The notes: generated by a model from the sequence alone, not told the origin. Shown: positions 638-20,282, counted from the stretch's first letter. The stretch: 64,000 bases of DNA from Zetaproteobacteria bacterium CG06_land_8_20_14_3_00_59_53 (GCA_002779605.1 PEWE01000020.1:186001-250000), one strand, 5' to 3'. A program made the numbers and translations.

Positions 638-1744
638 ATGAGCATTTATTGGTGTACGAATTGTTTGAATGCCTCCACGAGGCCGCGCATTACCTTCGAT
701 GAACGTGGATGGTGCAATGCCTGCCAGTGGATGGAGGAAAAGAAGACGCTCGATTGGGGAAAGCGTCAGGATCAGTTGGCGGAACTGATCTCCAGACATA
801 AGGGGCGTGGACAGTATGACTGTCTGGTTGCGGTAAGCGGAGGGAAGGACGGATCCTACGTGGCGCATACCCTGAAGACCCGATACGGGCTGAAGCCTCT
901 TTGCATCACAGTCAGGCCGCCTCTTTCGCTGGATATCGGCGAGGCAAACCTCAATGCGTTTATCAATTCCGGTTTTGAGCACTTGCTGGTATCCCCGGAC
1001 ACGACGGTCATGCGCGAGTTGGATAAGATCGGTTTTCTTCATTATGGCCAAGGCTACTATGGCTGGCTCATTTCCATTCATACCGCTGTTCTGCGAATTG
1101 CCGAGAAGTTTGGCATATCGCTCGTGTTCTACTCAGAAGATGGTGAGGTGGAATATGGTGGCAGCACTGAAAAGCGCTACGAGGGTGTGTACGGCATAGA
1201 CTACATGCGCAAGGTTTACCTGAACGAGACTTACGACACGGTCATGCGGGTTGCCAATGTCGATGATCGCGACCTCTACTGGTTCCGGTTCCCTGAGGAA
1301 ATGGCGAATTCTCTGGCGGATATCGAGGTCACTCACTTCAGCTTTTATGAGAACTGGGACCCGTATCGGAATTATCTTGTAGCGAAAGAACATTGCGGAT
1401 TGGCTGAAAACGAAGAGGCTGTTGTAGGAACCTTCACTAATTTTGCTCAGAATGACCAATTGCTTGCTTCGCTGCATTACTACCTGATGTATTTGAAGTT
1501 CGGCTTTGGCAGGGCAACACAGGATGCCGGGATTGAGATTAGAAGAGGTTCAATGAGTCGTGCCCAGGCTATCAATCTTGTGAACCTGTACGATTCTCAG
1601 GCGCCTCTCGATAATTATCAGGCATATGCAGATTATTTCGATATCTCCCTTGAAGAGTTTGAAAATACGGTTGATAAATTCGCCAACAAGGAATTGTTCG
1701 AAAAGGTTGATGGGTCCTGGAGACCCAAGTTCGTCGTTTCCTGA
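638..1744 (+). CDS. N-acetyl sugar amidotransferase, WbpG/PseA/PtmG type
   Basis: A 368-residue ATP-pyrophosphatase (N-type PP-loop) protein. It opens with a probable zinc site, two CxxC pairs (CTNC and CNAC, about residues 6-9 and 26-30), then the PP-loop SGGKDGS near residue 68. Family members adenylate the carbonyl of an acetamido group and replace it with ammonia to give an acetamidino group; in Pseudomonas WbpG takes ammonia from dedicated HisH and HisF paralogues. Exactly those two genes follow, with a one-base overlap to hisH. In a nonulosonate locus the likely product is an acetamidino derivative of legionaminic or pseudaminic acid (inference). The start has an upstream purine stretch (AAGGG). 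Confidence 0.9.
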   Translation: MSIYWCTNCLNASTRPRITFDERGWCNACQWMEEKKTLDWGKRQDQLAELISRHKGRGQYDCLVAVSGGKDGSYVAHTLKTRYGLKPLCITVRPPLSLDIGEANLNAFINSGFEHLLVSPDTTVMRELDKIGFLHYGQGYYGWLISIHTAVLRIAEKFGISLVFYSEDGEVEYGGSTEKRYEGVYGIDYMRKVYLNETYDTVMRVANVDDRDLYWFRFPEEMANSLADIEVTHFSFYENWDPYRNYLVAKEHCGLAENEEAVVGTFTNFAQNDQLLASLHYYLMYLKFGFGRATQDAGIEIRRGSMSRAQAINLVNLYDSQAPLDNYQAYADYFDISLEEFENTVDKFANKELFEKVDGSWRPKFVVS

Positions 1745-2367
1745 TGGGGGCCAGCATTGCTGTCATAGACTATGGCATGGGTAATATATGGTCGGTACTT
1801 AGTGCGCTGCGCTATCTTGGATGTAGTCCGACTGTCAGCGGCGATCCGAAAGAGATTGCTGGCGCCGACGTGCTATTGTTGCCTGGGGTTGGTTCTTTCA
1901 GAAAGGCCATGGCTACCTTGCAACAAAAAAGTCTTGATAAGGCCATCCTTGATGCTGTGCAAAACAGGGGGAGCAAAATCCTTGGAATCTGTCTTGGCAT
2001 GCAATTGATGGGCAGTCGCGGTTCTGAGGATGGCAATACAATTGGACTCGGTTTGATACCCAACCCGGTAGATAGGTTCACGGCACAGGAAGCTGGTAGC
2101 AGTAAGATACCCCACATCGGGTTTGATGTGGTTAGAAGCTCTGCAGATTCTTCCCTTTTTCGAGGCATACCTGAGGCGGCGGACTTCTATTTTGTCCATT
2201 CATATCGAATGTTGGCTGACGGTTTAAGTGGAAAAAAGGCCACTTGCAAGTGCGGGGTCGATTTTCTGGCCGCCTATGAACAGGATAATATTTTTGCTAC
2301 TCAATTCCATCCTGAGAAAAGTCAGAGCAACGGCCTGATGCTGTTGAAGAATTTTCTGGCCCAATAA
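1744..2367 (+). CDS. hisH2: HisH-like glutamine amidotransferase of the sugar amidation system
   Basis: A 207-residue class I glutamine amidotransferase. The nucleophile Cys is in GICLGMQ (about residue 82) and the His-Glu pair is in FHPEKS near residue 187. It hydrolyses glutamine and passes ammonia on. In histidine synthesis this feeds imidazole glycerol phosphate synthase, but hisA, hisB and hisG are absent here and the gene sits between a WbpG-type amidotransferase and a HisF paralogue, so it most likely serves acetamidino-sugar synthesis. The start ATG shares its A with the upstream stop (TGATG). Confidence 0.9.
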   Translation: MGASIAVIDYGMGNIWSVLSALRYLGCSPTVSGDPKEIAGADVLLLPGVGSFRKAMATLQQKSLDKAILDAVQNRGSKILGICLGMQLMGSRGSEDGNTIGLGLIPNPVDRFTAQEAGSSKIPHIGFDVVRSSADSSLFRGIPEAADFYFVHSYRMLADGLSGKKATCKCGVDFLAAYEQDNIFATQFHPEKSQSNGLMLLKNFLAQ

Positions 2368-2372
2368 CCGCT

Positions 2373-3200
2373 ATGTTGAAGAAACGTTTGATATTCACAC
2401 TGCTCTACAATCAGGGGCAGTTTATGTTGAGTCGGAACTTTCGCCTGCAGAAAGTCGGCGATCTCAAGTGGCTGCAGACAAATTATAACTTTTCGCACAT
2501 ATCCTATTCGATCGACGAACTGATTGTGCTCGATGTGACGCGAGGAGAGCGAAATACTGAAGACTTTTGCTCTGCGCTGAAGACGTTAACGGAAGGGTGC
2601 TTCGTTCCTATTGCCGCAGGCGGTGGGGTAAATACCGTTGGTCATGCGCGTGCCTTGTTGCATTCAGGTGCAGATAAGGTGGTGGTCAATACGGCCTTGT
2701 ACGAAGATGACGGATTTATCGGTGAATTGGCCAGTGAGTTCGGTCAACAATGCATTGTTGCTTCAATGGATATCAAGCGTGCTCCGGATGGTTCGTACCA
2801 GGCTTGGGCAGAATGCGGTAGTAGATGTATGGAGGGTTCGGCAAAGCATTGGATTGAAGCGAATGCGGGCAATGCGGTCGGTGAAATTTATCTCAATTCG
2901 ATCGACTGCGATGGAACTGGGCAGGGCTATGATCTGGGCTTGCTTGATCAGCTGCCGCCAAACATGTCCAAACCCGTTATCCTTGCGGGAGGTGTTGGTA
3001 ATGCAATTCATCTTGCAGCCGGCTTTGCCGATCCGCGAGTGGATGCCGCAGCGACTGCGCATCTGTTTAATTTCGTGGGCGATGGTCTGAAGCAGGCCCG
3101 TCAATCCCTGATTGCTGATGGCGTTGTCCTGCCGATCTGGGATGTCCAACTGCTAGAGCACCATCTTCGCCTGGATGATTCGCAGGGGCAGGACGATTGA
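2373..3200 (+). CDS. hisF2: HisF-like cyclase subunit of the sugar amidation system
   Basis: A 275-residue TIM-barrel protein of the HisA/HisF family with the barrel signatures IAAGGGV (about residue 72-78), ADKVVVNTAL and ILAGGVGN. Canonical HisF uses ammonia delivered by HisH through its barrel. In WbpG systems the HisF2 paralogue is thought to act as the conduit between HisH2 and WbpG, and the three-gene order here fits that. It begins 5 bases after hisH2 and overlaps the next gene by 4 bases. A role in histidine synthesis is not excluded but no other his gene is nearby. Confidence 0.88.
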   Translation: MLKKRLIFTLLYNQGQFMLSRNFRLQKVGDLKWLQTNYNFSHISYSIDELIVLDVTRGERNTEDFCSALKTLTEGCFVPIAAGGGVNTVGHARALLHSGADKVVVNTALYEDDGFIGELASEFGQQCIVASMDIKRAPDGSYQAWAECGSRCMEGSAKHWIEANAGNAVGEIYLNSIDCDGTGQGYDLGLLDQLPPNMSKPVILAGGVGNAIHLAAGFADPRVDAAATAHLFNFVGDGLKQARQSLIADGVVLPIWDVQLLEHHLRLDDSQGQDD

Positions 3201-4213
3201 TCCAGCGTATCCTTGTTGTGGGCCTCGGCAGTATCGGGCAGCGCCATCTTCGTCTGGCCAGAGAGCTTTTCCCTCTTGCCGATATCCGGGTTTTGCGCCA
3301 TCAGCCATGTTTATCCATGCCTGAATTCGCGGACGGGTGTTTTTCCGACCTGCAAGAGGCGGTCGGTTTCGAACCGCAAGTTGCCGTCATCGCCAATCCT
3401 GCCCCGTATCACCTGATATCGGCACAGGCGCTGGCGGGTATCGGAACACATCTACTGATCGAAAAGCCGTTGTCGATTTCAACAGAAGGCGTTCCACATC
3501 TCATGCAGACCTGCCTTGAGCAGGGCGCGTGCTTGCAGGTTGGCTACAACCTGAGGTTCCTTCCTTCACTGCAGCGCTTCAGGGCTCTCTTGAACGAGTA
3601 CGAGATAGGCAGGCTACTGTCGGTTCGCTGCGAGGTGGGGCAATTCCTGCCTGGATGGCGGCCGGATGCCGACTACCGGCAAGGAGTGTCCGCACGACGC
3701 GAACTTGGCGGAGGAGCCTTGTTGGAGCTTAGCCACGAGTTGGATTATCTGAGCTGGATATTCGGGGATGTGGAAAGTGTAAAAGCGACACTGAGCCGCC
3801 AGAGCGATATGCAGATCGATGTCGAGGATACGGTGCACCTGATCATGTCGTTCGTGCCGGATGCCGAAGGGCACAGGCTGATTGCTGCGGCGAATATTGA
3901 TTTCATCCGTCACGATACAACGCGTGTGTGTACAGCGATTGGTGAGCAGGGAAGTCTTCGCTGGAACGGATTGACAGGCATGGTCGAGAAATTCGAGGCG
4001 GGCGGCGGCCAATGGCAAGAGGTCTTCCATCATCAGCATCAGCGGGATGATAGCTATCTGGCCGAATGGAAACATTTTCTTGAATGTATCAGGGAGCGGA
4101 AATCTCCACTGATTGGAGGAAAGGATGGTCTGGCCGTGTTGCAGATTGTGGATGCTGCTCGTCGGTCTTCGGAATCGGGTAAGTCGGTCAGCGTCGCGAG
4201 GGAGGGAATATGA
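3197..4213 (+). CDS. Gfo/Idh/MocA-family oxidoreductase (PtmF-like position)
   Basis: A 338-residue NAD(P)-dependent dehydrogenase. The N-terminal Rossmann glycine motif is GLGSIGQRH (about residues 9-17) and the EKP of the family active site appears in LLIEKPLS near residue 90. The middle carries GGGALLELSHELDY, the conserved region of the C-terminal domain. It starts with TTG inside a 4-base overlap with hisF2. In Campylobacter a gene between ptmE and ptmB, called ptmF, takes part in making the GDP-GlcN precursor of legionaminic acid; gene order suggests the same role but the substrate is not shown by sequence. Confidence 0.82.
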   Translation: MIQRILVVGLGSIGQRHLRLARELFPLADIRVLRHQPCLSMPEFADGCFSDLQEAVGFEPQVAVIANPAPYHLISAQALAGIGTHLLIEKPLSISTEGVPHLMQTCLEQGACLQVGYNLRFLPSLQRFRALLNEYEIGRLLSVRCEVGQFLPGWRPDADYRQGVSARRELGGGALLELSHELDYLSWIFGDVESVKATLSRQSDMQIDVEDTVHLIMSFVPDAEGHRLIAAANIDFIRHDTTRVCTAIGEQGSLRWNGLTGMVEKFEAGGGQWQEVFHHQHQRDDSYLAEWKHFLECIRERKSPLIGGKDGLAVLQIVDAARRSSESGKSVSVAREGI

Positions 4214-4914
4214 AGGCAACGGCATTTGTTTTTGCACGCGGTGGCTCAAAGGGATTGCCCGGAAAAAACATTCGACCGCTGGCGGGCAAGCCTCTTATCG
4301 CCTGGTCGATTGAGCACGCCCTCGCAGTGGGCCGTATCGAGCGGGTCATAGTGTCGACAGACAGCGAAGAGATTGCAGCAGTGGCAAGGAAATTCGGTGC
4401 ACAGGTACCTTTTATCAGGCCCGCAGATCTAGCCCGTGACGATAGCCCCGAGTGGCTGGCCTGGAAGCATGCACTTGAATATCTGCACAGTACGGAAGGG
4501 GCTATGCCCGAGGTGATGGTTTCCGTGCCGGCCACTGCACCTATGCGGTCGCCGCAGGATATCGAGAACTGTCTGGATGAGTACGAGAAAGGTGGAGCCG
4601 ATGTGGTTATCACCGTGACCGATGCTCACCGCAGTCCTTACTTCAATATGGTGAAAGGCAATGAGGATGGAACGGTCGGCCTGGTTATTCCACCCGAATC
4701 AACGGTGACACGCCGGCAGGATGCCCCGGTGGTTTATGATATGGCGACGGTTGCCTATGTGGCTCGTTCGGAATTTGTCATGAGTCACTACGGAACATTT
4801 GAAGGGCGTGTCAGAAAGGTGCATGTGCCGGTACAGCGGGCGATCGACATTGATACGCTACTGGACTTTCAGATGGCAGAATGTCTTCTGCATACTGCGG
4901 TGAAAGAATCATGA
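4210..4914 (+). CDS. CMP-nonulosonate synthetase (NeuA/PtmB family)
   Basis: A 234-residue cytidylyltransferase that activates a nine-carbon sialic-type sugar with CTP. The nucleotide-binding motif ARGGSKGLPGKN is at about residues 8-19, followed by PLIAWSIEHAL and the sugar-binding region around DSEEIA. The start codon overlaps the upstream stop (ATGA). In this cluster the natural substrate is probably an acetamidino legionaminic acid (PtmB/LegF role). The condensing synthase (NeuB/LegI) and the epimerase/hydrolase (LegG) are not in the window and are presumably upstream. Confidence 0.9.
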   Translation: MKATAFVFARGGSKGLPGKNIRPLAGKPLIAWSIEHALAVGRIERVIVSTDSEEIAAVARKFGAQVPFIRPADLARDDSPEWLAWKHALEYLHSTEGAMPEVMVSVPATAPMRSPQDIENCLDEYEKGGADVVITVTDAHRSPYFNMVKGNEDGTVGLVIPPESTVTRRQDAPVVYDMATVAYVARSEFVMSHYGTFEGRVRKVHVPVQRAIDIDTLLDFQMAECLLHTAVKES

Positions 4915-5714
4915 GTAGCATCAAAGAAATGATGAACCTGAAAGGACGACGGGCCCTGATTACCGGGGCAGGTGGAAACCTGGGGAGGGTCATCGCGGAC
5001 ACACTGGCTGAAATCGGGGCCGATCTGGCACTGGTTGACCGGTCCGGTACGGATTTGCAGGGGCAGAGTGATGCGTTGCAGCAGCGCTGGGGCAACAGGG
5101 TTTACTGTTACCATTGCGATCTCGAACAACAGGAACAGCGTAATGAACTGGTGAGGCAGCTGAAAGACGACGGCGAAGGGCTCAATATCCTGATCAACAA
5201 TGCCGCTTTCGTCGGCACATCCGGACTGCAGGGGTGGTCTGTACCGTTCGAAGAGCAAAGCGTAGAGACATGGCGGCGTGCACTTGAGGTCAATCTCACA
5301 GCCGTGTTTGATCTGTGTCAGGGCCTGGCACCTATGCTGAGGCGTTCCGAGGGTGCAAGTATCATCAATATCGCCTCAATCTATGGCCAGTATGGGCCTG
5401 ATTGGGGTTTGTACGAAGGTACAGGCATGAGCAATCCCGCAGCCTACGGGGCATCCAAGGGTGGGCTGATTCAACTTACCCGTTGGCTGGCCACCACGCT
5501 GGCACCTGATGTGCGGGTGAATGCCATTTCACCCGGAGGTATATTCAGAAACCAGCCCGAACCGTTTGTGCGAAGGTATGCTGCGCGCACGCCGCTTTCG
5601 CGCATGGGAACCGAGGATGATATGCGAGGGTCTGTTGCGTATTTGGCCAGTGACCTGTCGAATTATGTGACGGGTCAAAATCTTGCAGTGGATGGCGGGT
5701 GGGGAATATGGTGA
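4911..5714 (+). CDS. Short-chain dehydrogenase/reductase (PtmA-like)
   Basis: A 267-residue classical SDR. The cofactor motif TGAGGNLGR is at about residues 19-27, NNAA near residue 97, the catalytic Ser in NIASIYG and the YxxxK as YGASK; the C-terminus ends NLAVDGGWGIW, typical of the family. I place the start at the ATG overlapping the upstream stop (ATGA) rather than at an upstream ATG 30 bases earlier that lies inside the previous gene. Position after the CMP-sugar synthetase mirrors ptmB-ptmA in Campylobacter. Confidence 0.88.
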   Translation: MSSIKEMMNLKGRRALITGAGGNLGRVIADTLAEIGADLALVDRSGTDLQGQSDALQQRWGNRVYCYHCDLEQQEQRNELVRQLKDDGEGLNILINNAAFVGTSGLQGWSVPFEEQSVETWRRALEVNLTAVFDLCQGLAPMLRRSEGASIINIASIYGQYGPDWGLYEGTGMSNPAAYGASKGGLIQLTRWLATTLAPDVRVNAISPGGIFRNQPEPFVRRYAARTPLSRMGTEDDMRGSVAYLASDLSNYVTGQNLAVDGGWGIW

Positions 5715-6271
5715 GTTTTTCGGAATTGAGGCAGCGAATCAAATTCTGGCGAACCTATGACCGGATAGGACCGGATATGGCGCTTACCCATTGGCGTCTG
5801 CATTTCAAATCCACGATGAGGAAGCTGTGCCAAGAAAAATTCAGGGCCTTTGGTGAACGTTCGGACTTCAGACCTGGCTCTTACGCAGAGGCATGTTCAA
5901 AGATATCGATCGGCAATGATGTGGTGATACGTCCGGGATCTTTCTTATATGCAGATATGACAGAAGGCGGCGGAGAAATCGTTATTGAAGACAAGGTGCT
6001 AATAGGGCCCGGGGTTCATTTTTACACCAATAACCATAAATTTTCCGACACTTCTATGGCTATTTTTGACCAGGGCTATCCGGCCCCCACATTATCTGAT
6101 TCCATTATTTTAAGGGGAGGATGCTGGATAGGAGCGGGGTCAATTATCCTTGCCGGTGTCGAGGTCGGCGAAAACGCCGTAGTTGGCGCCGGGACCGTCG
6201 TCACGAAGTCGGTTCCCCCAAGAGTAGTGTTTGCCGGCAATCCGGGAAAAGTCATCAAGACTTTAGGGTGA
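5708..6271 (+). CDS. Hexapeptide-repeat acyltransferase (WbbJ/Maa-like)
   Basis: About 187 residues with a left-handed beta-helix pattern: repeats such as IGNDVVIRPG, IEDKVLIGPG, IGAGSIILAG and VGENAVVGAG, with the catalytic-type His in YTNNHKFSD near residue 110. Such enzymes transfer acetyl groups from acetyl-CoA to sugar hydroxyls or amines. The start is the ATG preceded by GGTGGGG; a GTG at 5711, overlapping the upstream stop, is an alternative. It could O- or N-acetylate the nonulosonate or another residue of the polysaccharide; the target is unknown. Confidence 0.82.
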   Translation: MVSFSELRQRIKFWRTYDRIGPDMALTHWRLHFKSTMRKLCQEKFRAFGERSDFRPGSYAEACSKISIGNDVVIRPGSFLYADMTEGGGEIVIEDKVLIGPGVHFYTNNHKFSDTSMAIFDQGYPAPTLSDSIILRGGCWIGAGSIILAGVEVGENAVVGAGTVVTKSVPPRVVFAGNPGKVIKTLG

Positions 6272-6278
6272 GGTTCCA

Positions 6279-7106
6279 TTGAAGTATATCAAGCGTTTGA
6301 TGGCAGTATTCTGGAAGGGGCACAGGGCAATAGTGCGAAAGAATAGCAGATTGAAGAATTGCCATGCCGGTGAAACATGCATGATCCTAGGGAACGGTGG
6401 ATCACTGAAAAACTTTGATCTTTCCAAGCTTCCGAATCTTCCGGCAATCTGTACGGCCTATTCCCTGGTGGACAATAGATTGAAAGATGTAAATGTGCGC
6501 TATTGGGTTATTCCGGATTCCTATGTGCTTTATCCGGTTATCATGAACCATGTCGAGAAGAAGATTGCGAAGAACTACCTTCGTCCGATTTTGAAGAAGA
6601 TCGCTCTGAACAATCGGCAAGTGACGCTGATCCACAGCCTCACGCATTTTTACAGCTTTTTCCCAAAAACGAAGGATGTGGTTTATTATCATCACTTCGG
6701 GGATAAGAAATCCGGCAGTTTTGATCTGGCCGGAGACTTTGCAACCTGTGCTGGCTCATTGCATATCATGATTGGTGTTGCAAGGTTTCTTGGCTTTTCA
6801 AAAGCCATTTTGCTCGGTTGTGATTATCTGGGTTCTCCGAAGCTTGAGGGTCATTTTTATTCTGATTCCGCTCCGGTATATGGAAAGGATGATTCTCAGC
6901 ACGTGGATAAAGTGAAGGGTATTGCCGGAGACCTGGATATGACGGTGATCCTAGCTGAGGGGAGTTCTTGTTCGGCTTTCAAGTCAGCATCTTTTGAGGA
7001 ATATTTTGGTGTTCCCGAGGTAAAAAAAACCAACGTCGAAATCATTGACGAGGAATATCTGGCGATGATGCGTAAAGCCGCAGTGAAAAACCAAATATAT
7101 ATATGA
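6279..7106 (+). CDS. GT42/MptE-like protein, candidate nonulosonate transferase
   Basis: A 275-residue protein I cannot name securely. Near residue 36 it has ILGNGGSLKNFDLSKLPN, resembling the GNGPSLK start of GT42 sialyltransferases such as Campylobacter CstII and of DUF115/MptE-like proteins. Later AGSLHIMIGVARFLGF then ILLGCDYLGS (about residues 160-190) resemble the CstII region with GIDFY, and SQHVDKVKG (about residue 207) sits where CstII has its catalytic His. No membrane segments are apparent. It starts with TTG, 8 bases after the acyltransferase; an ATG at 6300 is an alternative. Being just downstream of a CMP-nonulosonate synthetase, it is a good candidate for the transferase using that donor (inference). 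Confidence 0.55.
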   Translation: MKYIKRLMAVFWKGHRAIVRKNSRLKNCHAGETCMILGNGGSLKNFDLSKLPNLPAICTAYSLVDNRLKDVNVRYWVIPDSYVLYPVIMNHVEKKIAKNYLRPILKKIALNNRQVTLIHSLTHFYSFFPKTKDVVYYHHFGDKKSGSFDLAGDFATCAGSLHIMIGVARFLGFSKAILLGCDYLGSPKLEGHFYSDSAPVYGKDDSQHVDKVKGIAGDLDMTVILAEGSSCSAFKSASFEEYFGVPEVKKTNVEIIDEEYLAMMRKAAVKNQIYI

Positions 7107-7165: not shown

Positions 7166-7228
7166 ATATGTTGATGAGGGCCAAAATGATTAACAATCAA
7201 AAAAAACATCTACACATGGTTGCCAGCT

Positions 7229-8119
7229 ATGCTTGAAATTTCAGCAGAAGCCAAACAGTTTTGTTCAAATGCGATTTTTATTACTGGCCCCGCCAGAAGC
7301 GGAACATCCATTGTAGGAAAGATCATTCACTCGTTGAATCTTGTGGAATATGCCTATGAGCCGCCTATGATGGTGACTCTGATGTCCTTGATCGATCGTC
7401 TGGATGCGGCTGACTGGAAACTACTTTGTGATACATACATCTATGAAGAGTTCTTTCTTAATGCCATTGCCGGCCGGGCGATTAATTGTAATTCCGCAGA
7501 CTTCAGTTCAATTTACGGGACGAAGACGGTCGAAGATGTCGAGCGTCGCCTATCCACACATTTCACAAAAAAGATGTGTCAGGAGTCCGGAGCCAATTCG
7601 GTCGTGGCGATTAAAATTCCCGATGTCGTCCACTCAATCCCGAAACTGAAAACCTACTATCCGACCATGCGTGTCGTTGTTGTTCTGCGGGATGCAGTCG
7701 ATACGATCAACTCCCTGTTACAAAAGGAATGGTTTAGCCCGAAAGATCCGAACTCTGATCTGGTATGGCCATTCAGAAGACATAAGGGAGTTAATGTTCC
7801 CTTTTGGGTGCGGCCTGGTGATGACGAGTTATGGTTGAATATATCCGAGGTCGATCGTGCAGCGTATTACTACATACGGGTGAACGAGGATGTGGAAAGA
7901 ATTGATGGACGCATAGAGCTGAGATACGGACATCTGTTGGAAAACCCACACAAGGCTACAAAGGCGTTGGCGCGTTCTCTGGGGCTGGATTTTGGGGCGA
8001 AGACCGAAGAGGTTATCAACAATATTCGGCCGACGAATCCTGTGAGGGACAAGCAACTCATCGCAAGCATCAGTTCCGAGTTCAGGGATAAGGTCGAGCA
8101 CTATTCGCAGGGCGTTTAG
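7229..8119 (+). CDS. Sulfotransferase family protein
   Basis: About 296 residues with the PAPS-binding P-loop TGPARSGTS (residues 19-27) and, near residue 150, RVVVVLRDAVDTINS, the usual second PAPS-binding segment with a conserved Arg and Ser. It should transfer sulfate from PAPS to a sugar hydroxyl of the polysaccharide. I use the ATG at 7229; a TTG three codons earlier is possible. It is followed after 2 bases by the next gene, and a second sulfotransferase domain occurs at 9437, suggesting a sulfated surface polymer. No PAPS-synthesis genes are in the window. Confidence 0.8.
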   Translation: MLEISAEAKQFCSNAIFITGPARSGTSIVGKIIHSLNLVEYAYEPPMMVTLMSLIDRLDAADWKLLCDTYIYEEFFLNAIAGRAINCNSADFSSIYGTKTVEDVERRLSTHFTKKMCQESGANSVVAIKIPDVVHSIPKLKTYYPTMRVVVVLRDAVDTINSLLQKEWFSPKDPNSDLVWPFRRHKGVNVPFWVRPGDDELWLNISEVDRAAYYYIRVNEDVERIDGRIELRYGHLLENPHKATKALARSLGLDFGAKTEEVINNIRPTNPVRDKQLIASISSEFRDKVEHYSQGV

Positions 8120-8121: not shown

Positions 8122-9345
8122 ATGCGAAAGCTTATCATCATTAATGCGGCGCCGAGCAGTCGCATCTTCGGGAAGCTTCTGGACCCCTACTGGTTCCACA
8201 ACAATGGTTTTCATGTCGAGCTATGGGATCTGTCGGCCATGCACCATGACCAGGATAGCATCGCTGCCTACTTTTCCGGTGCCGAAGGCTATAGGTATGA
8301 AGGGCCGGGGCACCGTTATTTTCATTCCAGGAAAGCGCTCAGGGATGCTCTCGCTGCCTTGAGCATCAGCGATATCATCTGGCCTGTGAACAGGACCTCA
8401 TACACCCTGCGTGACGATTTCTGGCTGCTACGATTGCTGAAGAAATACGGGCTGAAATATATTGTCGCTGAACTCGAAAACAAAATCGTTCCTGTTGCCG
8501 AAGGTGCAAGCACCCCGGATAGGTTCGCTGGTTTACTTCGCAAGGTTGTTGAGAACAGAAGGATTCTGGGGACTGTTCTGGCTCTCAGGATCAAAGGCTG
8601 GATCATGAATCATACCTCATGGTATCCGGACCCGTTGGCCTATATCGGCGTGGGTCAGGAGGCCAGTCGAAGATTCAAGAAAGCCTTCCGGGGGAGAACG
8701 GCATTCATCAGTATTCCAAGCCCTCTGGTCGAGTGGGACAACTGCCGGGAATTGTCCGATTCGGGCGGGTACAATTTGTTTGTTGATGAATCCATTGCCC
8801 ATGCGCCGGATTCCAAACTCTTCAAAAGGAATATCTGTGTCGATACGCAGCAGTATTTCCAAAACATCTCCCGGGCATTCTCTGTGATCGAGGCCGTGAC
8901 CGGGAAGCCGGTCGTAATCGGGGCGTCGGGAAAGGTGGACTATCAGGAGGATGTGTTCGCCGGACGCAAGCTGGTGTATGGCAGGACGAAGAGTCTAATC
9001 CAACAGGCAAACCTGGTGATTGGGCATGCCTCAAGCGGGTTGTTCCAGTCGGTGGTCAACCGCAAACCCGTTCTGATTATGAATGATCCGACTTTTACCG
9101 TCAGCAAGCAGAAGGATGTCTATGCAATGGCGTCCATGTTCAGGCTAACGCCCATGCTTTCCACGGCGTTGCAATCCACTCAGGTTGCTGATGCCATGAC
9201 AAGGGATACATCCTGCTACGCTGATATCGAGGAACAGTACTTCAGGGCCAAAGGGGTGAGCGGTGACTGGCGCGAGATCGTGGCGCGAGGTCTGGAGGAA
9301 GTGTTCGGAAGTGTGACCGGGAAGCCATCGGGGAACAGGCTGTGA
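8122..9345 (+). CDS. Uncharacterised GT-B-like protein, paralogue of the downstream fusion C-terminus
   Basis: A 407-residue protein I do not recognise. It shares strong colinear similarity with the last 400 residues of the next gene product: INAAPSSRIFG, GFHVELWD, GPGHRYFHSR, TLRDDFWLL, ASGKVDYQEDVFAGR and, near residue 300, IGHASSGL followed by RKPVLIMND. The GHASSGL...RKPVL segment resembles the acceptor/donor-site turn in the C-terminal half of several GT-B glycosyltransferases, so transferase activity is a fair guess. No signal peptide or membrane segment is evident. It sits 2 bases after a sulfotransferase gene, and its relative is fused to a sulfotransferase, so function with sulfation is likely. 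Confidence 0.6.
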   Translation: MRKLIIINAAPSSRIFGKLLDPYWFHNNGFHVELWDLSAMHHDQDSIAAYFSGAEGYRYEGPGHRYFHSRKALRDALAALSISDIIWPVNRTSYTLRDDFWLLRLLKKYGLKYIVAELENKIVPVAEGASTPDRFAGLLRKVVENRRILGTVLALRIKGWIMNHTSWYPDPLAYIGVGQEASRRFKKAFRGRTAFISIPSPLVEWDNCRELSDSGGYNLFVDESIAHAPDSKLFKRNICVDTQQYFQNISRAFSVIEAVTGKPVVIGASGKVDYQEDVFAGRKLVYGRTKSLIQQANLVIGHASSGLFQSVVNRKPVLIMNDPTFTVSKQKDVYAMASMFRLTPMLSTALQSTQVADAMTRDTSCYADIEEQYFRAKGVSGDWREIVARGLEEVFGSVTGKPSGNRL

Positions 9346-9436
9346 TCATAAAGGCATGTGACAAGATTTGTCATGGGCTGGTTGCTGCGGCCATCGTCAG
9401 GGATGCTGCAGGCTGTTTGAACCGGGGAAGGTCCTG

Positions 9437-11656
9437 GTGGGGCTGATTTATGATTTAGTGAAGGACAAACCCGTCTTCGCCAAGGCGAGGAGCGTAATTC
9501 ACGGCCTGCCTTATCTGATGCAGAAAGCCCTCAAGGTAATGTTGTTTCCCTCGCATTACTTCATGATCGCCAAAAACGATATCAATGCCTACCTGGGACA
9601 TGAAGCGGGAGGCTCACATGTTATTTTTGTGGCCGGCTTCCCCAAAAGCGGGACGACATGGGTGGAAAACTTCATCAGCAGGATTCCCGGTTACAGCCCG
9701 CGCGTTTTAGCTGGTTCGCAGGAGGTTATCCGTCTGCACCGCCTGCCTGCCTGTGCCTTCGACAGGGTTTCCCGATGTGCCTATTCATCCTACAAGACGC
9801 ACATCACTCCAAGCAGGGAGAATATCGACGTGCTGGTAAAAAAAGGCATCGACAAGGTGCTGGTGATGTATCGGGATCCGCGCGATATCATCGTCTCGAA
9901 CTATTACCACGTTTTGCAATCGAACCCCTGGAGAACTGATGACCCGTGGTATGCCGATTATACGGTGATGAGTAAGGAGGATGCGTTGTCTCATTCCCTG
10001 GATTTGATGGTCGGCCTTTACGACTCATGGGTGACAGGGTGGAGGCGCGTTGCTCAGGAGCATCCTGCGATCGATTGCCTGATGGTCCAATATGAAAGTC
10101 TGCGGGAGAATCCCGAAAAGGTATTCAGTGATATCCTGGCCTTTTTCGGGGTGGAAATGACCCATTCGACCTTCCAGGACCTGTTGCAGTCGGTGGATGG
10201 GCGATTCGCAAAGTTCCAGGATTTCGGCGAGCCGGGTAAGCGGTCCACCAGGCGTAAGGGGGCGAGCGGCGAGTGGAAGCACGAACTGAACGATGAGCAG
10301 AAGCAGCGAATCAATGAAAGACTGGGGCCGCTGCTTGTTGAATTGGGATATGAATCCGGTCCCGGTATGGCCCGGCATGGGGCTGCAAACAGGTTTGATT
10401 CGATCGGAGGTACCGCATATCGATTTCTGTCTCCGGAGGCCGAGGACCTGCCAAGGCTGATATTCATTACAGCGGCTCCCTGCGGCCGGATATTCGGCAG
10501 AACGCTGGCCCCCGAATGGTTTCAGGACAACGGTTTCCAGGTCGAATTCTGGGATATCTCCCCTCTGTACTATGATGAGCAGAGCCTCGCGGCCTATTCC
10601 TCGGGGGCAAGTGGCTACAGGTTTAAAGGCCCCGGTTACCGACTGTTTCAGTCAAGAGAAAATGTGAAAAAGGCATTGGATGGTCTTGGCAGGAATGACG
10701 TGTTCTGGCATTTGACGCGGACCTCATTCACCCTGTGTGATGATTTCTGGCTGCTTCACCTGTTCAAGCAGCATCGGCTCCGCTATGTCGTGATGGAATT
10801 CGAAAACCAGATCTTCACGGGCAGCGGGGAAAAGGGGCGTAGAACGTTCGGGGACCTTTTCATGAGCGCCATCCATCGCCGGGCCATGCTGGCTAAGATC
10901 CTGTCCAACAGGTTCAAAAGCTGGGTGATGAAGCATACGACATGGTACCAATGGCCGGGTTTGTATATCGGCGTCGGAGGTGTGGCTGAAAGAAGGTATA
11001 GAGAAGTTTTCCGCGCCAACACGAAATTCGTCAGTGTCCCAAGTACGCTGATAAACTGGTCTCCACCCGAGCTGGCAGATTCATCCTCCTACCATGTGTT
11101 TGTCGATGAATCGATCGCCTCTGCACCGGATGCCAAGCTGGAGAATCGTATTATTTGTAATGATATTGATCAGTACTATAAAAATATGAATCGGGTATTT
11201 TCAGTGATCGAGGCCCATACCGGAGTACCGGTGATTATTGCTGCCTCCGGGAAATTCGAATATGCGGAAGATGTGTTTGAAGGGCGCAGGGTGGTTTATG
11301 GCAAGACGCTGAAGCTCATTCACCAGTCCAGCATGGTTATCGGACATGCCTCCAGTGGATTGTATCAGGCGATAGTCAGTCGAAAACCTGTCCTGCTTGT
11401 GAACGACTCAACATTCACAGGAACCAAACAGCGTGATGTAAAGAAGATGGCATCCTTTTTCGGGGTGATGCCGGTTCCCTCTGCGGACTTGCAACAGGAT
11501 CATGTTGAAGAAGCTTTGGCTATGGATACGAGCTGCTTCAGTACTATTGAAGAGGATTATTTCAGGTCCAGAGGTGTGGGTGGAGACTGGCACGAGATTG
11601 TTGCAGAGGCGCTGCGTTCGGCGTTTGGCAAGGACTCCGAAGTGCCCACGGACTGA
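9437..11656 (+). CDS. Two-domain protein: sulfotransferase fused to the uncharacterised GT-B-like domain
   Basis: About 739 residues. Residues 60-320 form a sulfotransferase with PAPS loop GFPKSGTTW (67-75), MYRDPRDIIVS as second PAPS segment and the C-terminal RKGASGEWKHE characteristic of sulfotransferases. Residues from about 338 to the end repeat the whole of the preceding protein (ITAAPCGRIFG, GFQVEFWD, GHASSGLYQ, RKPVLLVND). I choose GTG 9437, which has GGGAAGG just upstream, over a TTG at 9368 whose extra residues look non-family. The fusion links sulfate transfer with the unknown domain. Its size and architecture are unusual. Confidence 0.7.
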   Translation: MGLIYDLVKDKPVFAKARSVIHGLPYLMQKALKVMLFPSHYFMIAKNDINAYLGHEAGGSHVIFVAGFPKSGTTWVENFISRIPGYSPRVLAGSQEVIRLHRLPACAFDRVSRCAYSSYKTHITPSRENIDVLVKKGIDKVLVMYRDPRDIIVSNYYHVLQSNPWRTDDPWYADYTVMSKEDALSHSLDLMVGLYDSWVTGWRRVAQEHPAIDCLMVQYESLRENPEKVFSDILAFFGVEMTHSTFQDLLQSVDGRFAKFQDFGEPGKRSTRRKGASGEWKHELNDEQKQRINERLGPLLVELGYESGPGMARHGAANRFDSIGGTAYRFLSPEAEDLPRLIFITAAPCGRIFGRTLAPEWFQDNGFQVEFWDISPLYYDEQSLAAYSSGASGYRFKGPGYRLFQSRENVKKALDGLGRNDVFWHLTRTSFTLCDDFWLLHLFKQHRLRYVVMEFENQIFTGSGEKGRRTFGDLFMSAIHRRAMLAKILSNRFKSWVMKHTTWYQWPGLYIGVGGVAERRYREVFRANTKFVSVPSTLINWSPPELADSSSYHVFVDESIASAPDAKLENRIICNDIDQYYKNMNRVFSVIEAHTGVPVIIAASGKFEYAEDVFEGRRVVYGKTLKLIHQSSMVIGHASSGLYQAIVSRKPVLLVNDSTFTGTKQRDVKKMASFFGVMPVPSADLQQDHVEEALAMDTSCFSTIEEDYFRSRGVGGDWHEIVAEALRSAFGKDSEVPTD

Positions 11657-11669
11657 ACTGGGGCTGGCT

Positions 11670-13712
11670 ATGAAGGCGTTACTTTCTCTGAAAGAGCATA
11701 ACTTTCATCCAGTTTACAGGCCCGATATTGACGGGCTGCGTGCGGTGGCGATTCTTTCGGTTCTCATTTTTCATGCCTTTCCCTCAATGTTGACAGGTGG
11801 TTTTGTCGGCGTTGATGTATTCTTTGTTATCTCCGGATTCCTGATTTCCAGCATCATCTTCAAAAGCCTGATACGCGGGGATTTCAGTTTTACCGAGTTC
11901 TATGTCCATCGCATCCGACGGATTTTTCCCGCGCTTATTCTTGTTCTGGCAGCTTCGTTCACCTTTGGCTGGTATGCCCTCTGGCCGAGCGAATTCGAGC
12001 AGCTTGGCAAGCATATCGCTGCCAGTTCTGGCTTCGTACAGAACTTCGTGCTTTGGAATGAGTCAGGATACTTCGATACCGAGTCTGCGCTAAAGCCATT
12101 GATGCACCTCTGGTCGCTTGCAGTTGAGGAGCAGTACTACCTGATATATCCCTTGCTGCTCTGGATTGCGTGGCGCTTAGGGGTGAACATAATAATGATG
12201 GTTATTGTGCTCGGTGTCATGTCTTTTGGTTACAACGTGGATCAGGTAAATGACGATGCCGTCAAGGCGTTCTTCTTTCCTCAGGCGCGCTTCTGGGAGC
12301 TTATGGCGGGGGGGGGGCTTGCTTATTATTTGCTGATAACCAAGCAGGTTCACATGACTGACCAGCTGAAGCAGTTGGTGTTTCGTTCGCATGCATTCGG
12401 CAGATCGACTGTTCCGGAGCAGAGAAAAGTCATTGCGAAGAACTTACTCTCAGGCATAGGTCTGCTACTAATCGTCGCTGCTGTTCTCGTTATGAACAAG
12501 GAAACGCCATTCCCGGGGTGGTGGGCCCTGACTCCCGTGGCGGGAACCGTTTGTATCATTCTTGCGGGACCGGAAGCCTGGCTTAACCGAAAGGTATTAG
12601 CGAATCGCTGGATGGTTTTTGTCGGGCTGATCAGCTATCCGTTATATCTGTGGCATTGGCCACTGTTGTCCTTTGCGCACATTGTTGAATCTGGACTTCC
12701 TGCTCTTCCAGTCCGAATTGCAGCGGTAATCATGAGCTTTCTGCTGGCTTGTCTGACGTATCGCTTCGTGGAGAAACCCATTCGCTTTGGCAAGCAACGT
12801 CTCATTATTACAAACTCGCTATGGGTGCTGATGGTTACTCTCGCGGGGGTGGGGTATGGCTGCTTTAAGCTTAATGGTTTGGAATTCCGGAAAATTGTGG
12901 AGCATGCAGTGATCCTGGATAAGCAGCTTGCCGGAATAAACATGAAATATCGGGAAAATGAAATCTGCACAGAGCGTTACCCGGTCCCGGAGCGCAAAGA
13001 GTATAAGACCAATATTTTTTGCGTGCAGAACAGAGACGACAACCCCACGCTTCTTCTTCTCGGCAATAGTTTTGCGAATCATTTGTATGTAGGGTTAATA
13101 ACAAACAGCCATTTTAAGCATCATACAATACTTTCATTTGGTAATTGTGATCCGGCATGGACCGACCCCTTTGAGGTTAACATGGTCGATTTTGCCACCT
13201 GCTCACCCTATCATCGATTGCAGCAGCAAAAGCTGATCGATAATATTGTTACGGGTTCCGGTTCCGTCCGGTACGCCATTATTAGCGGTTTGCTTCGAGA
13301 TGCGCGGAATCCGGATTATATTTCCCGTATCAAGAAGAGAGTGGACTTTCTGGAAAAGAATCATGTTAAAGTCATCATTTTCATACCGCACATCAGCCTT
13401 GGGTATGATCCGAGAGGGTGTTTTTCGAGGCCCTTTTCAGAGGCTATCCGCACCTGTGAACTGCCGGTTCAGGATAAGAATGATATTGTAGCCACTTTCA
13501 GGCCGCTCATGATATCGCTGAAGAATACGAACCCGTACGTTTCTTTTTATGACCAGAATCAGATGTATTGTAACGATAAGAAATGTTCATTTGTGCGTAA
13601 CAGTTTACCCCTGTTTAGAGATGCTCATTTATCCGAGTTCGGCAGCATGGAGATGAGCAAGGCCTTTGAGCAGTGGGCTGCTGTCAATGTTCCTGGAATC
13701 ATAAACAAGTGA
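11670..13712 (+). CDS. OafA/YrhL-type membrane O-acyltransferase with SGNH domain
   Basis: About 680 residues. The first 370 form an acyltransferase_3 membrane domain of about ten helices, opening with YRPDIDGLRAVAIL and the conserved His (residue 35, IFHAF); VDVFFVISGFLI and HLWSLAVEEQYY are hallmark segments. The C-terminal part is an SGNH-like periplasmic domain with LLGNSFANH near residue 460 and DAHLSEFG near residue 650 for the Asp/His pair. It likely O-acetylates the polysaccharide at the membrane. The start is the ATG 13 bases after the upstream stop, preceded by GGGG; a longer frame begins inside the previous gene and is rejected. Confidence 0.88.
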   Translation: MKALLSLKEHNFHPVYRPDIDGLRAVAILSVLIFHAFPSMLTGGFVGVDVFFVISGFLISSIIFKSLIRGDFSFTEFYVHRIRRIFPALILVLAASFTFGWYALWPSEFEQLGKHIAASSGFVQNFVLWNESGYFDTESALKPLMHLWSLAVEEQYYLIYPLLLWIAWRLGVNIIMMVIVLGVMSFGYNVDQVNDDAVKAFFFPQARFWELMAGGGLAYYLLITKQVHMTDQLKQLVFRSHAFGRSTVPEQRKVIAKNLLSGIGLLLIVAAVLVMNKETPFPGWWALTPVAGTVCIILAGPEAWLNRKVLANRWMVFVGLISYPLYLWHWPLLSFAHIVESGLPALPVRIAAVIMSFLLACLTYRFVEKPIRFGKQRLIITNSLWVLMVTLAGVGYGCFKLNGLEFRKIVEHAVILDKQLAGINMKYRENEICTERYPVPERKEYKTNIFCVQNRDDNPTLLLLGNSFANHLYVGLITNSHFKHHTILSFGNCDPAWTDPFEVNMVDFATCSPYHRLQQQKLIDNIVTGSGSVRYAIISGLLRDARNPDYISRIKKRVDFLEKNHVKVIIFIPHISLGYDPRGCFSRPFSEAIRTCELPVQDKNDIVATFRPLMISLKNTNPYVSFYDQNQMYCNDKKCSFVRNSLPLFRDAHLSEFGSMEMSKAFEQWAAVNVPGIINK

Positions 13713-13869: not shown

Positions 13870-15579
13870 TTGAAGGCTTCAGACGCGCTAGCTAAATATC
13901 TTGTTTCCCATGGGGTTCAGACGTGCTTTGAACTTGTGGGCGGGATGATTACTCATATTCTGGATAGCTTTGCTGAAACAGGTCAGTTTAATATTATCTC
14001 GATGCACCATGAGCAAGCGGCTGCTTTTGCTGCTGAAGGGGTGGTGAGGCAAACCAGGGGAAAAGAGATTGCGCTGGCTATGGGAACCAGTGGTCCCGGC
14101 GCAACCAATCTGATCACCGGTATTGGAAGTTGCTGGTTTGACTCCGTTCCGTGTTTATTTATTACCGGTCAGGTCAACACGCATGAACTAAAGGGTGACC
14201 GATCGATTCGGCAGCAGGGCTTTCAGGAATTAGGCATCATTGAAGTTGTGCGTCCGCTAACAAAGTATGCTGTAAGAGTCGATACTCCGGAAGACTTGCT
14301 GCCCGAACTGCATAAAGCATTGTCGATGGCCCTAAGCGGGCGGCAGGGGCCGGTGTTGCTGGATATTCCTAATGATGTTCAACGTGCTGACATTTCAGAC
14401 GCCTTGGTTGAACAATGGATGCGCCTTCCCCTTGATATTGAGTCAGGACCGGATATCACCGGGACACAGTTGGAGCACCTGACGTCACTCTGCATGGAGG
14501 CGCGGCGTCCGTTGATTTGTATCGGCGGTGGTGCCCGCTGGGCGGATTCGATGGATGGGTGGCTGCTGGCAGCTGATGCGCTTGGTATTCCCTACGTGTC
14601 TACGCTCATGGGTCATGAGCGGGTGGTTTCGCGCCCCTGTTATTTCAATATGATCGGCAGTTACGGCAATCGAGAGGCTAACTGGGCTGTGCAGAACTGT
14701 GATCTGTTGATTGTCGTGGGGGCGAGACTTGATGTCCGGCAAACAGGTGCTGATGTAGACGATTTCGCACGTAGTGCCCGCATTGTCCAGATTGATATCG
14801 ACCCATCTCAATTGGGTAACCGGGTTCAGGCCGATCTGAGTATCTGTGCCACGGCCGAGAGTTTTTTCATGGCATTTCCTCCCAGATCCCTGGTATTTCC
14901 CAACCTGGATGAGAACTGGCTGATCGACCTGGCCGTACATCGCGATCGGGCTCAGTTCAATGAGTATGCCGATTGGGAGATCAGTCCCAGCGAGTTTATA
15001 AAGAAGCTAAATCGCAGCATGGGAAATCGCCCGGTGGATTACGTTTGCGATGTCGGCAATCACCAAATGTGGGCGGCACAAAACCTGCGTTTATCTCCCA
15101 ATCAGGCCGTCCACTACAGCGGAGGTATGGGGGCGATGGGTTTTGCTTTGCCGGCAGCATTGGGTATGGCTATTTACTCCGGTAACAAGGTGGTTGTCAT
15201 TACCGGGGACGGAAGTTTACAAATCAACATTCAGGAACTGGATACGCTTATCCGCTTGGGATTGGACTTGACCATTATTGTCATGAACAATTCAGTGTTG
15301 GGCATGGTCAAGAATTTTCAGGATATGTATTTCGATGGACGTGACCAATCAACCCGGAAAGGCTATAGCAGCCCATCATTTACCGATATTGCAAATGCCT
15401 ATGGGATGAAAGCGATGCGCGTGACGGAGGCTGCAGAAATCGTAGAGGCTTTGAGTCTGGTGTCCGGCTATACTGGTCCGCTGCTGATTGAGGTCATGAT
15501 GGACGGAGCGACAGAATGTCGCCCCCGATTGGCTTTCGGCTCCAAGCTGGACGAGCAGTTCCCGCGCTTGGAAGCCTAG
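13870..15579 (+). CDS. Thiamine-diphosphate enzyme, acetolactate-synthase-like (YerE-like candidate)
   Basis: A 569-residue protein with all three TPP-enzyme domains. The catalytic Glu is in HHEQAAAFAAEG (about residue 48), the middle domain has the ALS-type nucleotide region, and the TPP-Mg motif is GDGSLQ (about 447) ending in MNN. It starts at TTG after AAGAAGAGGG. It could be a catabolic or biosynthetic acetolactate synthase, but no regulatory subunit gene follows, and it lies in a cluster with CDP-3,6-dideoxyhexose genes. In Yersinia the homologue YerE adds a two-carbon unit from pyruvate to a CDP-4-keto-3,6-dideoxysugar to make yersiniose; that role is proposed here by context. Confidence 0.8.
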   Translation: MKASDALAKYLVSHGVQTCFELVGGMITHILDSFAETGQFNIISMHHEQAAAFAAEGVVRQTRGKEIALAMGTSGPGATNLITGIGSCWFDSVPCLFITGQVNTHELKGDRSIRQQGFQELGIIEVVRPLTKYAVRVDTPEDLLPELHKALSMALSGRQGPVLLDIPNDVQRADISDALVEQWMRLPLDIESGPDITGTQLEHLTSLCMEARRPLICIGGGARWADSMDGWLLAADALGIPYVSTLMGHERVVSRPCYFNMIGSYGNREANWAVQNCDLLIVVGARLDVRQTGADVDDFARSARIVQIDIDPSQLGNRVQADLSICATAESFFMAFPPRSLVFPNLDENWLIDLAVHRDRAQFNEYADWEISPSEFIKKLNRSMGNRPVDYVCDVGNHQMWAAQNLRLSPNQAVHYSGGMGAMGFALPAALGMAIYSGNKVVVITGDGSLQINIQELDTLIRLGLDLTIIVMNNSVLGMVKNFQDMYFDGRDQSTRKGYSSPSFTDIANAYGMKAMRVTEAAEIVEALSLVSGYTGPLLIEVMMDGATECRPRLAFGSKLDEQFPRLEA

Positions 15580-15704
15580 TCGAGGATCATGTCGCTGGTT
15601 TGGGCCGGGTTACAAAAACCGGGAAAATATCAATCCAGCTTGCTCAAGTATGTGTACTATGCGTGCAGATTGCGCCGACTCCAGGGAAGAATTGAAAGCA
15701 GCCA

Positions 15705-16778
15705 ATGGATAAACAGACGAATGATTATCGGCACCCGGTTGTGCAAGAGGATCTGGTGTTTCTAACAGAGCATTATCCGATTCCATGGCATTCGTTGGGT
15801 GGGAAAACCGTGTTGATTTCCGGAGCATCCGGTTTTCTGGCCTCGCACATGGTAGAAACGTTGCTTTTTCTGAATGAGGCCCATCAACTGAATATAACGG
15901 TTCTTGCTCTTGTAAGAAGCCGCGATGGATTTATCCAAAGATTTCATCATCACCTGAATCGATCCGAGTTGTTCTGTATCGTGGAAGACATCAACAGTCC
16001 ATTGCACATGGAGCAAAAAATTGACTTCATCGTTCATGCCGCCAGCCAAGCCAGCCCGAAATACTATGCAACTGATCCAGTGGGCACTTTGAGCGCAAAT
16101 ACATTGGGTACGGCAAATCTGCTGGAACTGGCTCGCAGGCATCAAGTGGAAGGGTTTCTCTACTTCAGTAGCGCTGAGGTATACGGCGAATCGGCTCAAG
16201 TCCCGACTGCCGAGAGCGATTATGGTTGTATTGACCCGTTGGCTGTCCGCTCCTGTTATGCCGAAAGCAAACGCATGGGCGAGAATATGTGCGTTTCATG
16301 GCATCACCAATATGGGGTGCCGGCCAGAATAGTCAGGCCTTTTCATACCTATGGCCCCGGCATGAAGCTGGATGATGGACGTGTATATGCCGATTTCGTG
16401 GCAGACATCGTGAACGGACGAAACATCAAATTAAAAAGCGATGGTCAAGCCAGACGAGCCTTCTGCTATGTGGCTGATGCGACAGCCGGTTTTTTGATGG
16501 TGCTCTTACGAGGAGAAAATGCGCAGGCATATAACATTGGCAACCCGGACGCTGATACCAGCATCCGTGATTTGGCTCTGATGCTTGCCGGCCTTTATGC
16601 TGAGAAAGGGATATCTGTTGAGTTTGAAGACCGAAAAGAAAGAGAAGATTATCTGCCGAGCAAGATTTCTGTAGCTTGTCCGGATATTTCACTTGCCAGA
16701 GGGCTAGGCTGGGTTCCTGTTACTGCGTTGGAAATTGGATTCAGCAAGACAATTGAGAGTTATAAACATGAAAATTGA
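15705..16778 (+). CDS. NAD-dependent epimerase/dehydratase (extended SDR)
   Basis: A 357-residue extended SDR. The cofactor loop is SGASGFLASH (about residues 39-48), the catalytic region has FSSAEVYGE and the YxxxK as YAESK, and RPFHTYGPGM follows as in UDP-glucuronate decarboxylase and dTDP-glucose dehydratase relatives. FCYVADA is the usual C-terminal landmark. It should act on a nucleotide sugar, but which one (CDP, UDP or dTDP) is not clear. It overlaps the methyltransferase downstream by 11 bases. Confidence 0.82.
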   Translation: MDKQTNDYRHPVVQEDLVFLTEHYPIPWHSLGGKTVLISGASGFLASHMVETLLFLNEAHQLNITVLALVRSRDGFIQRFHHHLNRSELFCIVEDINSPLHMEQKIDFIVHAASQASPKYYATDPVGTLSANTLGTANLLELARRHQVEGFLYFSSAEVYGESAQVPTAESDYGCIDPLAVRSCYAESKRMGENMCVSWHHQYGVPARIVRPFHTYGPGMKLDDGRVYADFVADIVNGRNIKLKSDGQARRAFCYVADATAGFLMVLLRGENAQAYNIGNPDADTSIRDLALMLAGLYAEKGISVEFEDRKEREDYLPSKISVACPDISLARGLGWVPVTALEIGFSKTIESYKHEN

Positions 16779-17703: not shown

Positions 17704-17737
17704 ACCGGATGTACACGAATTTCACACGGTGGGTTTG

Positions 17738-18748: not shown

Positions 18749-18881
18749 GGACGATGATTTTCCTGAGAGTCCGGTATCAAGCGGGTTGTCCTGTTTTATA
18801 GATAGGATAGGTTTTTGGCCTCGGGGCGGCAAAGAAGGTAATTCCTTGTGGCAATAGTTGATTATTTTGGGAGTTTTGGAA

Positions 18882-20186: not shown

Positions 20187-20282
20187 CGGTGCGCCACCGG
20201 GTTATGTTTTGCTCGATTTATCCATGTTTATGTACGATCTCGTAATGAGAAATTACTTATTCAAGAAGTTGGAGGCTGTATT

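Follow-up and report, generated by a model that had tools for sequence, protein, structure and literature searches.

A predicted GT-B-type domain family beside nonulosonate genes and its pairing with sulfotransferases in a zetaproteobacterial polysaccharide locus

The duplicated domain and its sulfotransferases

The window, a stretch of 64,000 nucleotides from Zetaproteobacteria bacterium CG06_land_8_20_14_3_00_59_53 (PEWE01000020.1:186001-250000), contains a surface-polysaccharide locus in which one domain occurs twice: as the stand-alone protein P0002 and as P0003, the C-terminal part of a protein that begins with a sulfotransferase domain, ST2 (Table 1). These are the only two copies in the source genome, a member of the Zetaproteobacteria. 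A separate sulfotransferase gene, ST1, ends 2 bases before the start of P0002, exactly the spacing given in the initial annotation. The domain is a member of a widespread family that is uncatalogued in the libraries searched, is predicted to adopt a GT-B fold, and recurs beside genes for nonulosonate biosynthesis.

P0002 is the 407-residue product of an open reading frame with the very limits first annotated (8122-9345), while P0003 comprises residues 361-761 of a 762-residue reading frame. The two align from end to end with 209 of 403 positions identical (52%, E 2e-153), bearing out the colinear paralogy claimed at the outset, and each of the shared motifs listed with that claim (RIFG, DDFWLL, SGK..EDVF, GHASSGL, RKPVL, and GDW) lies inside the alignment. 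The fused gene may start at TTG 9368, from which its 762 codons are counted, at GTG 9437, or at ATG 9518. The domain limits first proposed, residues 338-739, fit the GTG start and shift to 361-761 when read from the TTG.

ST1 matches PF13469 (45.6 bits against a cut-off of 27, E 1e-11). The N-terminal part of the fused protein matches PF00685 (87.8 bits against a cut-off of 22, E 1e-24), as expected from the earlier description of a sulfotransferase joined to the domain. Both carry the 5′-phosphosulfate loop (RSGT/KSGTT), read from the sequence as GPARSGTS in ST1 and GFPKSGTT in ST2. BLAST gives no significant match between ST1 and ST2 (20.8 bits), and their Pfam families differ; thus, the earlier picture of the same pair both split and fused is only loosely true, in that the domain is found both beside and fused to a sulfotransferase, but the two sulfotransferases come from different families. 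ST2 resembles a third sulfotransferase, encoded upstream of the window (25% identity, E 5e-16), more closely than ST1, and the source genome has 8 match rows for PF13469. A sulfotransferase fused to this domain was not found described in the literature searched, a limited open-access library.

Directly upstream of the window (L007, 8560-12177), two tandem TIGR04372 glycosyltransferase paralogues, 64% identical to each other, come after the gene of the third sulfotransferase (PF00685). This is a second place in the locus where duplicated GT-B-type transferases follow a sulfotransferase.

Table 1. Features of the locus, with positions counted from the first letter of the window
Feature	Position	Strand	Basis
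Window half of the putative CMP-legionaminate-type cluster: WbuX/PseA-like amidotransferase, HisH, HisF, PtmF-like oxidoreductase, LegF-like cytidylyltransferase	638..4914	+	Open reading frames, profile matches
Short-chain dehydrogenase/reductase (PtmA-like), hexapeptide O-acetyltransferase, and unassigned 275-residue protein, between the legionaminate cluster and ST1	4881..7106	+	Open reading frames, Pfam, NCBIfam
ST1, stand-alone sulfotransferase (PF13469), read from TTG 7220	7220..8119	+	Open reading frame, Pfam; gammaproteobacterial orthologue adjoins the domain gene
P0002, stand-alone predicted GT-B domain copy, 407 residues, SGK clade	8122..9345	+	Open reading frame, paralogy, AlphaFold2 model, tree
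SGK (S269-K271), at the alignment position of the wider-family HP[R/K] motif	8926..8934	+	Family alignments
GHASS loop (residues 301-305), aligned with the family H-x-S-T motif; predicted in the donor-binding half	9022..9036	+	Alignment; position in the fold inferred
Fused gene, sulfotransferase and predicted GT-B domain, 762 residues from TTG 9368 (alternatives GTG 9437, ATG 9518)	9368..11656	+	Open reading frame, Pfam, BLAST
ST2, sulfotransferase domain (PF00685, residues 86-319), FPKSGTT and RKGASGEW motifs	9623..10324	+	Pfam; motifs read from sequence
P0003, residues 361-761 of the fused protein (predicted GT-B domain)	10448..11650	+	Alignment to P0002, tree

Extent of the family

Neither copy of the domain is assigned to a family in Pfam, NCBIfam, PHROG, or the PDB sequences. 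A search of the PDB sequences yields chance matches only, and a weak match to Epimerase_2 (E 0.1) is far below the cut-off. As far as these libraries go, the domain is undescribed, as had been stated; the profile search with the 407-residue protein that was proposed along with that statement returns no well-characterized family in the libraries searched.

The initial profile searches reached a single remote relative, in a genome of the same genus (G070). This relative retains the HP motif discussed below (HP-type), and the identical protein (100%) is present in Zetaproteobacteria bacterium CG1_02_55_237. A profile search of 399 Pseudomonadota genomes returned two same-genus genomes, one distant GT-B protein, and chance matches, and nothing else. 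Scans of viral contigs with single proteins and with the A1-A3 alignments found no relatives, nor did tblastn against phages and plasmids. The single match of a first DNA pattern, in a phage-like contig, was rejected as a chance match.

A DNA pattern for the C-terminal motif, which had caught a true relative in a viral scan beforehand, was then run against 85,000 species genomes and matched 52 stretches. Of these, 47 are counted as family, and five (L048, L050, L052, L079, and L081) are left out as broken or doubtful relatives. None of the family members exceeds a Pfam or NCBIfam cut-off, although weak matches to four surface-carbohydrate families occur. By profile search, at least 29 of 297 SAR11 (Pelagibacterales) genomes carry the family, one of them a carrier already known, mostly near NeuB. 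The total comes to about 75 relatives of roughly 400 residues each, from Pseudomonadota, Bacteroidota, Omnitrophota, Planctomycetota, Acidobacteriota, Cyanobacteriota, Spirochaetota, and archaea. A distinct SAR11 sub-branch of nine sequences (the L122-L128, L131-L133 group) differs in its S-S loop pattern.

Predicted fold

With the family alignment as input, AlphaFold2 models P0002 with a predicted local distance difference test (pLDDT) score of 89 and a predicted template modeling (pTM) score of 0.88, and the HP-type relative from the same genus with scores of 92 and 0.90, respectively. In the predicted model, two Rossmann-like domains face a cleft, the arrangement that defines the GT-B superfamily. 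Foldseek places the P0002 model among GT-B enzymes (E 1e-8), with matches to GT1 enzymes, MurG, and 2-epimerases; the HP-type model likewise matches the GT-B fold (E 2e-7), its top matches being uridine diphosphate (UDP)-N-acetylglucosamine (GlcNAc) 2-epimerases. For both models, the matches are UDP- and thymidine diphosphate (TDP)-sugar glycosyltransferases and UDP-GlcNAc 2-epimerases at a template modeling (TM) score of ~0.5. The models thus support a nucleotide-sugar GT-B enzyme without singling out sialyltransferases, and the domain was aptly, on this predicted fold, called glycosyltransferase-like.

The SGK clade

P0002, P0003, one gammaproteobacterial protein, and two SAR11 proteins form a clade of five with support 100/100. 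Of the 79 aligned family sequences, 66 have H at the first position of the HP motif and 69 have P at the second, whereas all five clade members carry S-G-K there. Also absent from the clade is the H..DYD-like motif seen in the wider family. It has 40 invariant columns of its own, including ASGK, GHxSS, D222, D230, T289, K315-P316, and D322, and is therefore read as having an altered active site and not a decaying one. A sialyltransferase-like assignment of the family from its HP and S-T motifs was considered and rejected: 2-epimerases share similar motifs and fold, and the two defining motifs fail in the SGK clade.

Nonulosonate genes beside family members

Nonulosonate biosynthesis is the strongest context of the domain and was absent from the initial annotation. 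NeuA-, NeuB-, or NeuC-like genes (called at E ≤ 1e-20 in loci of at most 8 kb) are present in 20 of the 47 family loci, nearly always on the same strand as the family gene. Several adjoin it directly: NeuA at -25 bp in L080 and at 75 bp in L088, and NeuB at 2 bp in L063 and L075 and at 32 bp in L086. In SAR11, 24 of 29 family copies lie within 15 kb of NeuB compared with ~5% expected under uniform placement, which is too lenient a null because the family and NeuB genes share polysaccharide loci. NeuB is present in 28 of 29 SAR11 carriers, as called by the subfamily profile, versus 18 of 31 sampled non-carriers.

Sulfotransferase pairing in other genomes

The association with sulfotransferases, for which the initial annotation had proposed a genome survey, does recur outside the Zetaproteobacteria. 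In the unrelated Gammaproteobacteria bacterium 45_16_T64 (L140), the gene order is LegC, NeuC, formyltransferase, deacetylase, NeuB, NeuD, PtmE, PtmF, LegF, PtmA, PseA, HisH, HisF, the ST1 and P0002 orthologues, and a flippase. The ST1 orthologue is 47% identical over 293 residues, and its gene shares 4 bases with the one that follows; the P0002 orthologue is 33% identical. The other 77 Zetaproteobacteria searched contain neither an ST1 orthologue nor an SGK clade member, and only one distant HP-type relative of the domain. Among 135 order-mates of 45_16_T64, in which ST1 was not searched for, no further SGK clade member was found.

One of the two SAR11 clade members (G532) follows HisF, and a remote ST1 relative (profile E 1e-6, Pfam 0.026) with an altered P-loop, GMIGGGKA, lies four genes upstream. 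In the wider family, an ST1-like gene is near a member in only one of 47 loci (L085), the 8-kb locus of 45_16_T64 stopping short of its sulfotransferase. With the G532 locus counted, a sulfotransferase is nearby in three of four SGK clade loci versus one of ~45 wider-family loci (Fisher p ~0.0009), a result that is suggestive only because the loci are very few, the counts include the window from which the pattern was first recognized, and the stretches are of unequal length. Fusion to a sulfotransferase domain is seen in the window only.

The L085 locus, from Nitrospirae, contains NeuB; its ST1-like gene is ~2.4 kb from an HP-type member (4042-4992 and 7364-7999) in which D replaces the H of the HP motif.

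The surrounding locus

Upstream of ST1, genes for LegB, LegC, a formyltransferase, and NeuB- and NeuC-type enzymes, located directly beyond the window edge (L007), precede PtmE-, PseA/WbuX-, HisH-, HisF-, PtmF-, and LegF-like genes. Four score above their NCBIfam cut-offs (LegB 531/475, LegC 540/420, NeuB 514/400, and NeuC 481/236 bits). Together, the LegB, LegC, NeuB-, NeuC-, PtmE-, PseA-, HisH-, HisF-, PtmF-, and LegF-like genes make up the gene set of a legionaminate-type pathway. Its product is probably legionaminate and not another nonulosonate, judging from gene content; the cytidylyltransferase of the cluster matches PseF, below the NCBIfam cut-off.

The 275-residue protein upstream of ST1 (6279-7106) has no Pfam match above the cut-off. 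Its GNGGSLKNF start and a later GCD...HFY stretch presumably resemble nonulosonate transferases of the GT42/DUF115 type, and this likeness makes it a competing candidate for the role of legionaminate transferase.

Downstream of the fused gene are an acyltransferase, genes of the cytidine diphosphate (CDP)-glucose pathway, polymerases, and a WcaJ-type initiating transferase. The OafA-like acyltransferase (AT3 and SGNH) is listed at 11502-13712 and thus begins within the fused gene; the actual start probably lies further downstream. The region 13870-22132 encodes an acetolactate-synthase-like thiamine pyrophosphate enzyme together with RfbH, RfbF, and RfbG, which suggests a branched CDP-3,6-dideoxyhexose (yersiniose-type) pathway. 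The order RfbF/RfbG/RfbC-like/epimerase/GT2 is repeated in the gammaproteobacterial locus (L141).

Proposed role and alternatives

The domain is proposed, with moderate confidence, to be a GT-B glycosyltransferase of an uncatalogued family that assembles nonulosonate-containing surface glycans and in which the SGK clade has taken sulfotransferases as partners. The proposal rests on homology, the predicted fold, the clade, the gene context, and the recurrence of the ST1–domain pair; catalysis, donor, acceptor, sulfation target, and order of steps are conjectural. In the locus, the genes preceding ST1 would make cytidine monophosphate (CMP)-legionaminate. Each GT-B copy would then extend a cytoplasmic, lipid-linked repeat unit by a single residue, most likely that of legionaminate or of its direct neighbor. 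The partner sulfotransferase, adjacent in the case of ST1 and fused in that of ST2, would sulfate this residue or its acceptor before export with 3′-phosphoadenosine 5′-phosphosulfate (PAPS) as the donor, and the tandem duplication may mean that two residues or positions are treated in this manner. A narrower version can be advanced only tentatively: the SGK clade may be an undescribed group of nonulosonate transferases whose donor-phosphate loop has been rebuilt, with SGK in place of HP, and which couple legionaminate transfer to PAPS-dependent sulfation, by way of the conserved pair and the fused two-enzyme protein, giving sulfated, legionaminate-bearing surface glycans. In either form, the “new system” of the initial annotation is an overstatement for an uncatalogued glycosyltransferase clade inside ordinary surface-glycan assembly.

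Several observations weigh against a nonulosonate transferase with sulfotransferase partners. The D/E-D/E-G motif is not found in P0002 by reading, and the family alignments contain no such invariant column. The SGK clade lacks the HP motif, mutations of which lower CMP-N-acetylneuraminic acid (CMP-Neu5Ac) binding in the meningococcal polysialyltransferase (PMC2169525); since the motif is needed there for full binding and is replaced in the clade, the donor of the clade is uncertain. The folds matched best are those of UDP-sugar glycosyltransferases and UDP-GlcNAc 2-epimerases and not those of sialyltransferases. Part of the nonulosonate association may reflect shared surface-glycan loci, the comparator being uniform placement and not other glycosyltransferases of the loci, and the SAR11 non-carriers may hold undetected members. 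Finally, the clade locus of SAR11 genome G400, one of four, has no sulfotransferase within the 24 kb read. The claim that the domain works with sulfation is backed by the orthologous pair in 45_16_T64 and the remote relative in G532, but the association is not universal.

It is possible, if doubtful, that the SGK clade is an active glycosyltransferase for another sugar of the same glycan, such as CDP-3,6-dideoxyhexose, and that the nonulosonate link is mere co-location. RfbF and RfbG, 46-47% identical between the two, lie downstream both in the window and in the gammaproteobacterium, no other clade has the HP motif replaced, and the fold matches are nucleoside diphosphate (NDP)-sugar enzymes. 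However, the SAR11 stretches read around clade members contain no clear RfbF/RfbG counterpart, and members of the wider family directly adjoin NeuA or NeuB.

Ordinary turnover of a surface-glycan locus, by which a duplicated glycosyltransferase acquired adjacent and fused sulfotransferases by chance and without functional coupling, is an unlikely account. Only four clade loci are known, one of them without a sulfotransferase and another with the remote, P-loop-altered relative, and sulfotransferases are frequent in the source genome. Nevertheless, the orthologous ST1–domain adjacency is found in two distant classes while the relatives sampled for the window genome otherwise lack both genes, and two unrelated sulfotransferase types are joined to the same domain.

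It is quite unlikely that the clade has given up catalysis to become a carbohydrate-binding or acceptor-presenting module for sulfotransferases, akin to the “substrate-presenting domain” first suggested. The loss of the HP and DYD-like motifs in all five members and the adjacent or fused sulfotransferase in two of four clade loci would fit such a role, but the 40 invariant columns are kept, unlike those of a decaying active site, both glycosyltransferase halves are retained, and one clade member has no sulfotransferase nearby. A nucleotide-sugar enzyme of the UDP-GlcNAc 2-epimerase type, sharing the GT-B fold and HP/SS-like motifs, is very improbable: 2-epimerases are the top Foldseek matches of the HP-type member and Epimerase_2 is matched weakly, but that match is far below the cut-off, TM is ~0.5, NeuC is already encoded in several loci, and pairing a 2-epimerase with a sulfotransferase makes little pathway sense.

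Significance and relation to known systems

As of a 2020 study, no bacterial enzyme that moves legionaminate onto cell surfaces had been reported (PMC7439481). The family members beside CMP-nonulosonate genes in Zetaproteobacteria, SAR11, Bacteroidota, Omnitrophota, Planctomycetota, and archaea form a candidate set for this step, and carriage by SAR11 makes the family potentially abundant in the ocean. The sulfotransferase pairing predicts that the glycan made by these organisms carries a sulfated residue. Marine Cobetia produce acidic polymers with 3-deoxy-D-manno-oct-2-ulosonic acid (Kdo) or sulfate (PMC11766843), and nonulosonates and sulfate groups co-occur in the granular sludge matrix (PMC10483923); a sulfated nonulosonate glycan is therefore plausible, though not documented for the organisms considered here. 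The natural ST2–GT-B fusion protein is convenient for assays.

The enzyme type is known, while the family and its sulfotransferase pairing are absent from the libraries searched. The four surface-carbohydrate families noted above, TIGR04372, TIGR04331 (LIC12162), TIGR04326, and TIGR04396 of NCBIfam, share a C-terminal GT-B-type half and links to O-antigen or surface-glycan genes. Weak matches to each come from 1-5 of the 47 family sequences (best E 3e-4), all of them well under the curated cut-offs; the window proteins have no match, and length and N-terminal half differ. For TIGR04372, the best of the 47 relatives reaches E 0.0028, short of the cut-off.

The sialyl- and polysialyltransferases of GT38, GT52, and GT80 (CAZy; PMC2169525) resemble the family in the two-Rossmann-domain fold (GT80), the HP motif of most members, and the nonulosonate context. 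They differ in that no solved structure gives a detectable sequence match to the family, no sialyltransferase is among the top 50 fold matches, no D/E-D/E-G motif is seen, and SGK replaces HP in the window clade. SpsB of Bacillus subtilis and the candidate pseudaminate/legionaminate transferases of Tannerella forsythia also stand beside CMP-legionaminate genes, and SpsB has HP motifs, but these are TagB-domain proteins as described in PMC7439481 and are set apart here by that description and not by sequence. When tested, SpsB proved dispensable for legionaminate transfer (PMC7439481). ST1 and ST2 are clear members of PF13469 and PF00685, respectively, with PAPS-binding motifs, and differ from other sulfotransferases of these families in being adjacent or fused to a predicted GT-B domain.

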